Part shown: positions 14,491-51,568 of the stretch, in pieces
How positions within the stretch are numbered: the stretch's first letter is position 1
Layout of the letters: each line of letters starts with the position of its first letter
Source of the DNA: Microtetraspora sp. NBRC 13810
GTDB taxonomy: Bacteria > Actinomycetota > Actinomycetes > Streptosporangiales > Streptosporangiaceae
NCBI RefSeq assembly: GCF_030268685.1
Contig: NZ_BSRQ01000002.1
Span: 434,001-498,000 of the forward strand
Direction: 5' to 3'
Length of the DNA: 64,000 nucleotides
The notes under the pieces: model-generated
Told to the model about the DNA's origin: nothing
Database searches by the model: none
The model's input: the letters and a program-made list of their open reading frames with translations, nothing else
Position numbers and translations under genes: made by a program

Positions 14491-14571
14491 TGCTCCCGGC
14501 CGGATTCGAACCGGCGCCCGCCACCCCACCGCGGTGGGCGTGTGTGTCCTCGGCCGCTGGACCACGAGAGC
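14491..14571 (-). tRNA. tRNA-like gene with aberrant anticodon region (Glu-like body), probably degenerate
   Basis: On the minus strand an 81-nt segment has a full acceptor stem (GCTCTCG with CGGGAGC, one G-U pair), a D arm GTCC/GGAC with loop AGCGGCCGA, and a T arm GCCGG-TTCGAAT-CCGGC, plus discriminator A. These resemble tRNA-Glu. About 30 nt separate the D and T arms instead of the usual 22-23, and no normal anticodon arm forms directly after the D arm. One fold uses CCGCG/GGCGG (one mismatch) with loop GTGGGGT, giving a GGG anticodon but leaving about ten unpaired extra bases. An alternative is a CCACC/GGTGG stem whose loop lacks U33. It may be a pseudo-tRNA. CCA is not encoded. Confidence 0.6.
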
Positions 14572-27824: not shown

Positions 27825-28415
27825 GGCGGCGGACGGCGCGGCGACGCGCACGGCGCCGACCTCGCGCGCGTACTCCTCCAGCATCGCCCGGAGCTGCCGG
27901 CGGCCACGGTGCAGCCGCGACATGACCGTGCCGATCGGGGTGCCCATGCGCTCGGCGATCTCCTTGTAGGGGAAACCCTCCACGTCGGCGAGGTAGACCG
28001 CTTCGCGGAAGTCCTGGGGCAGGGCGCGCAGCGCGTCCATCACGACGCCGTCGGGCAACTGGTCCAAAGCTTCGTTCTCGGCGGAGCGCAGGCCGGTGGA
28101 CATGTGCGACTCGGCGGCGGCGAGCTGCCAGTCCTCGATGTCCTCGGTCGCCGACAGCTTGGGCGAACGCTGGCGCTTGCGGTAGTCGTTGATGAAGTTG
28201 TTCGTCAGGATGCGGTGCAGCCACGCCTTGAGATTCGTCCCCTCGCGGAACTGGTGGTAGGACGTGAACGCCTTGGCCACGGTCTCCTGGACGAGATCTT
28301 CGGCGTCGGCCGAGTTACGGGTGAGACGCATGGCGGAGGCGTAAAGCTGAGCCGTCACCGGCACGACGTCACGCTCGAACCATGCCTGGCGCTGCTCTTC
28401 GCTTATAGAGATCAT
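27822..28415 (-). CDS. sigR: ECF sigma factor of the SigR/SigH group
   Basis: This 197-residue sigma factor should direct the thiol-oxidative (disulphide) stress response. Region 2 is '[57 protein letters not shown]', with the SigR-specific W-L-H-R-I-L-T-N-N. Region 4 is '[46 protein letters not shown]'. In relatives the redox-sensitive anti-sigma RsrA (HCC zinc motif) is encoded directly downstream; here there is no rsrA, and the sigma gene instead converges on a MEDS-ATPase gene. The frame is open for another 82 codons upstream (to 28661), which recalls the long sigmaR' isoform of Streptomyces, but no start or promoter for it is proven. Confidence 0.88.
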
Positions 28416-28880
28416 CCCAATCCCCCTCGTGCTCTTCCCCCCGCTACCCCGTCCGTACGCAACCATGACGGACCGTTGATCCTTCTGATGGCTTGTCTCA
28501 TGGTGACAGGGCATCGATAAACGCCCTGTTAAGAGTTCTGCCTGATCAGGGGGCTCCCAGCTCGCCGTGCCCGAGGCGGCAGTCGTCACGCCTACGGCCG
28601 GACAAGTCTCATTAGCGTAACACTCTTTACTCGATTGAGTGGAAAGTGTGGTCAGCATCACAGATCCTCGGCTAGTCCGGCCCGCACCGCCTGCCGCACG
28701 GCGCCCGATGACCCCCTTCCCTCGCCCGGCCGTGCGTGTCCGCTGCCCTCAGACGAGGGCGTTAACCCGTATCGATAGACGTGTGTGACCACCTACCCGG
28801 TTCACTCCGGCCGCGGGAGAAGACGCGCGAAAGGGCGCGCGTCCTCTTCCGGGACGCGCGCCCTCGGCGCGGGAGCGGGG
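28416..28880. other. 465-bp region upstream of sigR without a separate gene
   Basis: The minus-strand sigR frame stays open from 28415 to 28661 and could encode an N-terminal extension, though the predicted residues look unlike a domain. An imperfect 28-bp inverted repeat centred near 28634 (ACTC/GAGT around AATC) lies beyond that frame's end. 28700-28832 shows nothing recognisable. A terminator for the next gene lies at 28833-28863. Confidence 0.45.
28833..28863 (-). terminator. Terminator of the siderophore-binding protein gene
   Basis: The 12-bp arms GGGCGCGCGTCC and GGACGCGCGCCC are perfect complements with a 7-base loop, 17 bp past the stop codon. A competing overlapping hairpin (GAAGACGCGC type) adjoins it. 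Confidence 0.75.
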
Positions 28881-46858: not shown

Positions 46859-47653
46859 TCAGCGCCAGCGCCAGGCGTGGTCCACGGGGCCGATGCCTGC
46901 GCCGAGGGGGAAGCCGTGGGCGATGGCGCCGGTGACGTACTCCTTGGCCTTGCGGACGGCGGTGGGCACGTCCTCGCCCAGGGCGAGGTGGGAGGCGATC
47001 GCGGAGGCCAGGGTGCAGCCGGTGCCGTGAGTGTGGCGGTTGTCGTGGCGTCCGGCGGTGAGGAGGAACTCCTGGTCGCCGTCCGTGAGCAGGTCGACGG
47101 GCTCGCCGGGCAGATGGCCGCCCTTGATCAGCGCCCAGGTCGGGCCGAGGGCCAGGACGGCCTCGGCCGCCCGGCGCAGGCCGCGTTCGTCCTCGACCTT
47201 GACGCCGGTGAGCTGGGCGACCTCCCACAGGTTGGGGGTGGCCACGGTGGCGGTGGGGAGGAGGAGGGACTTGACGGTCTCGACCGCCTCGGCCGCCAGC
47301 AGCGTGTCGCCGTGCTTGGAGACGCCGACCGGATCCACCACGACGGGCGCGCCCGCCTGGGCGAGGACCCGCGCCACCGTTTCGACGAGGGCGGGCGAGG
47401 CGAGCATGCCCGTCTTGATCGCCTGGGCGCCGATGTCGCCGAGCACCGAGTCGAGCTGGGCGCGCACCGCCTCCGGCGGCAGTTCCCAGTAGCCCTGCAC
47501 GCCCAGCGAGTTCTGCGCGGTGACCGCGGCGATGACGCTCATGCCGTGTACGCCGAGCGCCAGCATGGTCTTGAGGTCGGCCTGGATGCCCGCGCCGCCG
47601 CCCGAGTCGGATCCGGCGACCGTCAGCACGAGAGGAGGGGTCGAAACCGTCAT
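46859..47653 (-). CDS. thiD: Hydroxymethylpyrimidine/phosphomethylpyrimidine kinase ThiD
   Basis: This 264-residue kinase phosphorylates HMP and HMP-P for the pyrimidine half of thiamine. Motifs: '[41 protein letters not shown]' at the N terminus, '[16 protein letters not shown]', '[12 protein letters not shown]', and the ATP-site H-T-H-G-T-G-C-T. The ATG at 47653 is chosen by homology; the frame is open to 47845 but the extension is a low-complexity artefact. No TPP riboswitch was recognised upstream. Confidence 0.95.
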
Positions 47654-48056
47654 GAACAACATCCAACCAAACGCGCTCCCCCTCCCCCCTCCCCCGCCCC
47701 GTCCCTCAACGGCACCGCCCGAGGACGGCACGCGACACACGGCACCACCCAGGGCGGTGGGCACGGCGCACAGCCCGGGACACAGCGCGGCCCGGCACGG
47801 AGCCGAGCGAGGCCGTGCCGGGATGGGCCAATGGACACGGCACACGACGACGCCCCGAAGACCAGGCGCGCAGCCCGGGACACAGCGCGGCCCGGAGCCG
47901 GGCGGGGCCGGATCGTGCCGGGGAGTCGCGGCGCCCCCGCTGCGGTGGAGGCGCCGCGACTGGTCCGGCGGTTCTGTAAGGAGGTGCCGGGGCCGGGCAG
48001 GGCGGGTGGGTCAGCTGGTCCTGCAGGAGGTGCCGGGGCCGGGCAGGGCGGGTGGG
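47654..48056. other. 400-bp gene-free region with duplicated blocks
   Basis: No gene is supported. A block at about 47768-47800 ('gcacagcccgggacacagcg' type) recurs at about 47868-47900. At 47979-48056 a 46-bp unit begins that repeats into the 3' end of the next gene. The region also carries a run of c-rich sequence near 47685-47700 close to thiD. Confidence 0.6.
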
Positions 48057-50215: not shown

Positions 50216-51253
50216 TCACTCTTTGAAGTGATCCCAGCCCGCACGACCCGGCGGACGGCCCCGCACGGTCACCTCCCGGCCCTCGCCGACCCGGCCGACG
50301 ACCAGCCATTCCGGCGGCAGCCGTACCTCCGGCGGGAAGGTCGCGGCCAGCGCGTGGTCCTCGCCGCCGGTGAGGATCCACTCCAGCGGGTCGGCGCCGA
50401 GGTGGGCGGCGGCGGCACTGAGCGGGGCGGAGGGCGTGAAGGCGTCCGGGTCGAGGTCGATCGAGACGCCGCTCGCCGCGCAGACATGGCCGAGGTCCTG
50501 GAGCAGGCCGTCGCTGACGTCGAGCATCGCGGTCGCGCCGAGCCGGGCCGCGCCGGGACCGCACGCGTACGGCGGGCGGGGGCACCGGTGCGCGTCCACC
50601 AGCCAGGCGAACGGGTCCGCCGTCTCCTCCGGCCCACCCACCGCGCCACCAGGACCACCGGCACCCACCGCGACCCCGGGCCCACCGGCCCCCGCCACGG
50701 CCCCGGAGGCACCGGGACCACCGGCCAGGAGCAGGGCCAGGCCGGCGGCGGAGGGGCCGAGGCGGCCGGCGACCGCCACGACGTCGCCGGGGCGGGCGCC
50801 GGAGCGGACGACCGGGGCGCGTCCGCCGAGGTCGCCCAGCGCGGTGACACCCAGCACGATGAGGTCGGAGCGGACCGTGTCGCCCCCGGCGACGGTGGCG
50901 CCGACCAGGGCGCACTCGTCACGGAAGCCGTCGGCCAGCGCGTCGATCCAGGTGGCCTCCAGGTCGGCGGGGACGCCGAGTCCCACCACGAGCCCGGTGG
51001 GGTCGGCGCCCATGGCGACGATGTCGGCGAGGTTCTGCGCTGCGGCTTTTCTCCCAATGTGGTACCCGCTGGACCAATCGCGACGGAAATGTCTACCCTC
51101 AAGTAACAAGTCCGTCGAGATGACAACCCGTCCGTCGGGCGCGCCGACCAGTGCGGCATCGTCCCCGGGGCCCAGCAGGACCGTCTCACCCTGGGGCAAG
51201 CGCCCAGCAATCCGCGCAACAACTCCGAATTCGCCGAGATCTCCGACTGTGAT
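50216..51253 (-). CDS. thiL: Thiamine-monophosphate kinase ThiL, apparent AUC start
   Basis: This 345-residue kinase makes thiamine diphosphate from thiamine monophosphate. Motifs are intact: 'VLLGPGDDAALVGAPDGRVVISTDLLLEGRHF', 'NLADIVAMGADPTGLVVGLGVP', 'GGDTVRSDLIVLGVTALG' and 'DVSDGLLQDLG'. The reading frame needs to begin at I-T-V-G-D-L-G-E-F-G. The only suitable position is an ATC at 51253, preceded by a perfect AGGAGGT site (6-base spacing) and a TACCCT -10 box at 51281-51276. No ATG, GTG or TTG is in frame nearby. A glycine/proline-rich insertion of about 30 residues ('GPGASGAVAGAGGPGVAVGA' and more) interrupts the protein after 'GLALLLAG'. It is divergent from the AsnC/RAM gene. Confidence 0.92.
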   Translation of the reverse strand: MTVGDLGEFGVVARIAGRLPQGETVLLGPGDDAALVGAPDGRVVISTDLLLEGRHFRRDWSSGYHIGRKAAAQNLADIVAMGADPTGLVVGLGVPADLEATWIDALADGFRDECALVGATVAGGDTVRSDLIVLGVTALGDLGGRAPVVRSGARPGDVVAVAGRLGPSAAGLALLLAGGPGASGAVAGAGGPGVAVGAGGPGGAVGGPEETADPFAWLVDAHRCPRPPYACGPGAARLGATAMLDVSDGLLQDLGHVCAASGVSIDLDPDAFTPSAPLSAAAAHLGADPLEWILTGGEDHALAATFPPEVRLPPEWLVVGRVGEGREVTVRGRPPGRAGWDHFKE

Positions 51254-51281
51254 GGTGCACCTCCTGTCGCAACACAGGGTA
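51254..51281 (-). promoter_or_regulatory. thiL promoter -10 box and ribosome-binding site deciding its start
   Basis: TACCCT (51281-51276) should set transcription start near 51268. The message would then carry only about 16 leader bases containing AGGAGGT (51265-51259), ending at ATC (51253-51251). An in-frame CTG lies inside the promoter itself and so cannot be the start. Confidence 0.65.
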
Positions 51282-51334
51282 CGGTGGCCCTTCGGCGCTG
51301 ATCCAATCCAGCTCTGCCCGCCCGGGAGGACGTG

Positions 51335-51568
51335 ATGGTGCAGGCCTACATCCTTATCCAGACCGAGGTCGGTAAAGCCGCGGGTGTGGCGCGTCAGATC
51401 GCCTCGATCCCCGGCGTCACCCAGGCCGAGGACGTCACGGGTCCCTACGACGTCATCGTGCGCACCCAGGCCAACAACGTCGACGAGCTGGGCAAGCTGG
51501 TGGTGGCCCAGATCCAGGCGGTCGAAGGGATCACGCGTACTCTCACGTGTCCCATCGTGCACATCTGA
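51335..51568 (+). CDS. Stand-alone AsnC/Lrp ligand-binding (RAM) domain protein
   Basis: This 77-residue protein consists of just the RAM fold of Lrp/AsnC regulators: 'VQAYILIQTEVGKAAGVARQIASIPGVTQAEDVTGPYDVIVRTQANNVDELGKLVVAQIQAVEGI'. No DNA-binding helix-turn-helix is present. Such single RAM domains bind amino acids and may co-assemble with full-length Lrp proteins. The ATG at 51335 is preferred (GGGAGGA site 6 bp upstream) over the GTG at 51332. It overlaps the DUF3515 gene by one base and is divergent from thiL, a common actinobacterial arrangement. Confidence 0.92.
   Translation: MVQAYILIQTEVGKAAGVARQIASIPGVTQAEDVTGPYDVIVRTQANNVDELGKLVVAQIQAVEGITRTLTCPIVHI

Follow-up and report, generated by a model that had tools for sequence, protein, structure and literature searches.

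Comparative Evidence for a Conserved AUC Start Codon of thiL in Microtetraspora and Related Actinomycetes

The thiL Gene and Its Start Region

The window, by which we mean the whole stretch of 64,000 nucleotides that was analyzed, belongs to contig NZ_BSRQ01000002.1 of Microtetraspora sp. NBRC 13810. It carries thiL, the gene for thiamine-monophosphate kinase, on the minus strand (50216–51253; 345 codons and a stop codon). Translated from the ATC codon at 51253–51251, the protein scored above the curated thresholds of two ThiL models (NF004351, 421.6 bits, cut-off 324; TIGR01379, 257.5 bits, cut-off 184.15) and was the single ThiL match in the whole genome. The start region reads GACAGGAGGTGCACC-ATC-ACA-GTC-GGA-GAT-CTC, and the 21-mer AGGAGGTGCACCATCACAGTC was found once in the window with 0 copies expected. 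The neighboring gene is divergently oriented, has a canonical start and encodes an Lrp/AsnC ligand-binding domain (51332–51568, plus strand; PF01037, 48.4 bits). The intergenic stretch between the thiL start and this Lrp-like gene extends from 51254 to 51331. About 2.4 kb downstream of thiL lies thiD (46862–47845, minus strand; TIGR00097, 305 bits), so that two thiamine genes are located close together.

In accordance with the earlier note, no ATG, GTG or TTG was found in frame near the ATC. The 100 codons upstream contain none, and the nearest one is a GTG at a distance of 103 codons (51562), which sits within the Lrp-like gene of opposite orientation. Downstream, the first canonical codon in frame is the TTG of codon 19 (51199–51197), beyond the GEF motif, which was invariant in an alignment of 15 sequences. 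An in-frame CTG located eight codons 5′ of the ATC (51277–51275) indeed overlaps the promoter hexamer TACCCT (51281–51276), as had been proposed, and was rejected as a start codon.

The position of the N terminus was compared with solved ThiL structures. The alignment with 1vqv, ThiL from Aquifex, starts at residue 4 of both proteins, and an extension by three residues places residue 1 on the ATC; other solved ThiL chains start about three residues earlier or later than 1vqv. The ATC also coincides with the ATG of the Micromonospora locus L082, and a protein that begins there has its N terminus a few residues before GEF, as expected for ThiL. As a local control 30 out of 48 selected open reading frames of the window were scanned. 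Fourteen scored above a curated NCBIfam threshold; each of these contains a canonical codon in the span from −15 to +12 codons around the model N terminus, in contrast to thiL, where there is none. Little weight is to be placed on this control, since the span is wide enough for a canonical codon to occur frequently by chance and the FtsY model misses the N terminus. The weight consequently rests on the relatives.

Directly upstream of the start codon an AGGAGGT site (51265–51259) is followed by the bases GCACC and then by the ATC. The site described before was thus recovered, but its spacing is five bases and not six. The extended Shine-Dalgarno sequence AGGAGGTG (51265–51258, minus strand) matches over 8 nt the generally known sequence of the anti-Shine-Dalgarno tail. 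The hexamer TACCCT (51276–51281, minus strand) is a probable −10 element. A scan with the sigma-70 consensus found no thiL promoter; the assignment therefore rests on comparison, namely on CACCGTACCCTG, which is common to apparently leaderless GTG thiL genes elsewhere. From the spacing of seven bases in these homologues, a 5′ leader of about 15 nt (51254–51268) would result, compared to about 16 nt in the earlier note. Of 200 shuffled versions of the thiL start region, 187 fold better than the region itself (z = +1.35).

The Homologous Codon in Related Genomes

A ThiL match was obtained in 56 of 60 relatives. Thirty thiL loci, including that of the window, were read, and 19 of them have ATC at the homologous codon, mostly directly behind a Shine-Dalgarno sequence. 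Among 80 named thiL loci, over half of which are from Streptomyces, ATC was observed in 13. Named carriers are Nonomuraea, Sphaerisporangium, Acrocarpospora, Microbispora, Herbidospora and Actinomadura alba, together with three further MAGs.

A pattern with ATA, ATC or ATT (AUH) at the thiL codon matched in 155 of 297 genomes of the family and in 40 of 68 genera, with at least four of these genomes and two of these genera being false matches. On parsing, four matches (L188, L189, L220 and L221 in genomes G156, G255, G136 and G295) showed no thiL, and genera g37 and g67 leave the 40 because of this. Genus g26 is counted because of L190 (genome G025), probably a leaderless GTG gene. After removal of false and doubtful matches about 150 genomes and 37-38 genera remain. 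The corresponding pattern with ATG, GTG or TTG, which is 8 positions longer than the AUH pattern, matched in one of the 297 genomes (G069). All 29 rows of the core clade carry AUH. Among the matches listed, ATT was found in seven genomes of genus g24, and genus g16 has ATA in two genomes and ATC in one. At one locus of genus g24 (L182, genome G148) the codon is GTT, and a clear Shine-Dalgarno sequence is missing. The predominance of AUC over AUU and AUA says little, because AUC is the usual isoleucine codon in GC-rich genomes.

At precisely the position of the thiL AUC, an ATG or GTG occurs in Micromonospora and Dactylosporangium (ATG in the Micromonospora locus named above), and in Streptomyces an ATG or GTG start is located two codons earlier. 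A longer AUH pattern matched in 34 of 394 genomes across the class. Outside the family these include nine f16 genomes (12 sampled), all three of family f33 and one each of f9 and f12. Three f40 matches (L236-L238) were rejected, as their sequences read as rhodanese-like. In f16 not every case is secure, since canonical codons lie close upstream in L232 (ATG, two codons) and L023 (GTG, three codons). ATC was also seen in two families of the same order, in f3 (L030) and with less clarity in f2 (L196).

For a row-wise comparison 164 loci were parsed and 11 were not, three of which were recovered. Duplicates were then removed and the Streptomyces-type rows reduced to six, which left 119 rows, 68 of them AUH. 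In a weakly resolved tree of these 119 ThiL N-terminal parts, with L190 and L196 scored as AUH, parsimony requires 11 changes of the AUH character, and the starred branches force at least two. As judged by sequence comparison, the predicted AUH start of thiL is a feature kept throughout the clade and is present in other actinomycete families as well, and not the property of a single strain. Neither an ATG at the homologous codon nor a start shared farther upstream that would lengthen the N terminus, both named in the earlier note as findings that would speak against an AUC start, was found in the close family.

Searched for with a loose motif, the divergent Lrp-like neighbor was recognized in 75 of 76 examinable thiL rows, AUH or not. 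Between the thiL start site and a motif close to where the Lrp-like gene begins, there are 73-140 bases in 38 of 39 AUH rows (264 bases in the remaining one) and 64-303 bases in 36 non-AUH rows.

Shine-Dalgarno Strength and Early Codons

A five-base Shine-Dalgarno core is present in 63 of the 68 AUH rows, and in 46 of these 63 it is separated from the start codon by 5 nt. The median energy of the Shine-Dalgarno duplex is −13.15 kcal/mol for the 68 AUH rows versus −8.65 kcal/mol for 44 canonical rows. In a second comparison without L190, L196 and nine leaderless-type rows, the medians are −13.2 (66 rows) and −9.0 kcal/mol (35 rows); both comparisons are uncorrected for kinship. A correction for kinship leaves a single well-supported independent pair, which is too few for relating Shine-Dalgarno strength to start class.

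The first nine codons, ATC ACA GTC GGA GAT CTC GGC GAA TTC (51227–51253, minus strand), are conserved in the 29 core-clade rows. Mean codon identity in these rows is 0.89 for the first eight scored codons (within codons 1-9) and 0.82 over codons 2-12, compared with 0.63 farther on. The early codons are thus unusually constant at synonymous sites, and their third positions contain less G and C. To some extent this constancy may serve the divergent Lrp-like gene or its promoter instead of thiL.

Proposed Initiation at AUC and Alternative Explanations

In the Microtetraspora genome infC also has ATC at the place of the start codon. It is located behind AGGAGGT in the context CTAGGAGGTCCC-ATC-AGC. 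An infC match was found in 43 of 46 genomes, and in all 30 infC loci that were read, including the genome's own, ATC occupies this place. All 60 tRNA matches of the genome were examined for initiator-type features, which we take to be an unpaired first base and a GGG/CCC anticodon stem. Two initiator-type tRNAs were identified, both with the anticodon CAU, and the single Ile-GAU tRNA is of the elongator type. One weak match (L208) has no clear anticodon. Within the window a weak tRNA-like match of 39.5 bits was noticed at 14491–14571 (minus strand), for which ARAGORN gave no clear identity (anticodon 'cacc').

We propose that the ordinary initiator tRNA reads the thiL AUC. The first two bases would pair with the CAU anticodon, and the third codon base would form a C-C mismatch. 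In the passages on start-codon pairing with CAU drawn on here, AUU is among the cases and AUC is not. The near-perfect Shine-Dalgarno sequence, four to five bases upstream, would hold the 30S subunit at the AUC, and together with the short, weakly structured leader it would make the weak codon usable. Since IF3 rejects third-base mismatches, ThiL output should be low and would increase under scarce or relaxed IF3, similar to what is seen for infC and Streptomyces sigR (GUC). Such a start might benefit the control of TPP synthesis. Taken as a whole, this explanation by a CAU initiator, Shine-Dalgarno compensation and discrimination by IF3 appears likely to us. The narrower proposition that IF3 actually limits the thiL start in the cell we consider somewhat more probable than not. 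A TPP riboswitch (RF00059) was not found upstream of thiL; the four of this genome are located on contigs C10, C12, C24 and C25, and thiL is on C2.

The strongest competitor, although we regard it as clearly the less probable one, accepts AUC as the true start and denies a regulatory role. Little ThiL might be needed, the strong Shine-Dalgarno sequence might suffice, and the codon might have been kept by descent, which alone would yield the uniformity of the core clade. However, AUC, AUU and AUA interchange, yet a canonical codon was matched in just one of the 297 family genomes, though AUG differs by a single base and is the stronger start. Under drift alone, changes to AUG, GUG or UUG should have occurred more often.

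A quite improbable alternative is that translation starts at a canonical codon farther upstream and that the AUC is an ordinary internal isoleucine codon. The frame in the window is open up to the GTG 103 codons upstream, but that codon is part of the divergent Lrp-like gene. Among the 68 AUH rows, 32 have a canonical in-frame codon within 12 codons upstream; in 14 such a codon is farther off, and in two none occurs before the edge of the stretch. In the other 20 rows, however, an in-frame stop codon precedes any canonical start. These rows carry 19 genus labels and represent at least 18 genera, since g33 and Herbidospora probably denote the same genus. In two of them the stop lies two codons upstream of the ATC (AGG TAA GAC ATC in L179, TGA GAG ATC in L224), and L162 and L170 read TAG GGG TGT GCC ATC. 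In these 20 rows, as in the window, the only plausible start is none of ATG, GTG and TTG.

The 32 near codons themselves were inspected by eye. Eighteen fall in a −10-like hexamer or at most seven bases away from it and three inside the Shine-Dalgarno sequence, which assigns 21 to the promoter-like stretch or the Shine-Dalgarno sequence. With spacing of the leaderless type, transcription would begin downstream of the 18. This spacing is known from Nocardiopsis-like genera, in which the CACCGTACCCTG promoter core is followed by seven bases and a leaderless-looking GTG. The remaining 11 near codons are candidate starts (L023, L174, L183, L184, L187, L190, L196, L219, L228, L232 and L234). L190 resembles a leaderless GTG gene and fits an upstream start, as L196 (ATG six codons upstream) and L232 perhaps do, both of which are ambiguous. 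The stop codons provide the strongest evidence, at the level of sequence, that AUC is the thiL start. The comparative support for the AUC start suggested earlier is strong, given ATC, ATT or ATA in the relatives and stops upstream, and we consider it very likely that thiL starts at this codon.

In the Nocardiopsis-like loci (L007, L024, L025, L028, L109, L192, L193, L197 and L198) a leaderless thiL mRNA seems to be made. Their GTG follows TACCCT or a similar hexamer after about seven bases, and the promoter core is that of the AUC genes.

Three further explanations were rejected. Reading of AUC as a start by a dedicated initiator tRNA or through a deviating genetic code would account for ATC at both infC and thiL; with both initiator-type tRNAs carrying CAU and the Ile-GAU tRNA being an elongator, it is very improbable. 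Equally improbable is a start at the GTG overlapping the Shine-Dalgarno sequence followed by a frameshift, as this GTG is out of frame, forms part of the Shine-Dalgarno sequence in the window and is missing from that of the ATC relatives L008, L018, L019 and L030. An error for ATG in the draft assembly (114 contigs) is practically negligible, because the same codon class occurs in many independently sequenced genomes.

Comparison with Known Noncanonical Start Codons

In thiL, an AUH start is retained by a metabolic gene across nearly 40 genera and is almost never replaced by AUG, which indicates that such genes can be found by comparison. Gene callers restricted to ATG, GTG and TTG should place the ThiL start wrongly in AUH genomes. 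Besides sigR, thiL would be the second candidate IF3 target in actinomycetes. More tentatively, and with less than even confidence, one may think of an actinomycete IF3 regulon of infC (AUC), thiL (AUC, AUU or AUA) and sigR (GUC or GUU), in which the kept third-base mismatch would let 30S fidelity set both the last step of TPP synthesis and a thiol-stress sigma factor.

Experimental characterization is available for very few bacterial genes that start with a codon other than NTG, as is also stated by Feeney et al. 2017 (PMC5472188). The earlier note had referred mainly to the AUU of infC for such starts. This has to be corrected, since the same article gives ATC for Streptomyces infC and GTC for Streptomyces sigR, the latter repressed by IF3. 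The word thiL is absent from the main text of that article. Literature text searches, in a collection with few subscription papers, returned no report of an unusual thiL start; one of them was swamped by unrelated papers and is weak evidence of absence.

The best sigR homologue of the Microtetraspora genome (L256, G000:C2:726766-727326, outside the window) reads AAGGGGGTG GGT CAG GTT; set beside Streptomyces sigR, its start may be the GTT and not the Shine-Dalgarno GTG. A second sigma factor of the SigH/SigR family within the window (27825–28661, minus strand; TIGR02947, 299 bits) has an ordinary ATG at the model N terminus.

The AUC genes share the CACCGTACCCTG promoter core with the leaderless-type GTG thiL of the Nocardiopsis-like genera, which is the same gene but has neither leader nor Shine-Dalgarno sequence, its GTG following seven bases after the −10 element. 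In E. coli, pcnB is a non-autoregulatory gene limited by its AUU start. It resembles thiL in combining an AUH start with the lack of autoregulation, and differs in gene and phylum. With infC (AUU in E. coli, AUC in Streptomyces; PMC5472188) thiL shares a conserved AUH codon behind a GGAGG-type Shine-Dalgarno sequence. In contrast, infC is autoregulated by its own product, whereas ThiL is a metabolic enzyme without a known role in initiation. The likeness to sigR extends to the identical AGGAGGTG with an unused internal GTG, to conservation throughout a clade and to an occasional variant of the third base, GTT in sigR and ATT or ATA in thiL (PMC5472188). The sigR codon is GUC, and stop-codon scanning, N-terminal sequencing and work with infC alleles established its use (PMC5472188); the thiL start is predicted from sequence comparison. 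In our best reading thiL is a newly recognized, conserved member of the class of noncanonical start codons to which infC and sigR belong and which IF3 discriminates, and its control by IF3 would follow the same principle.
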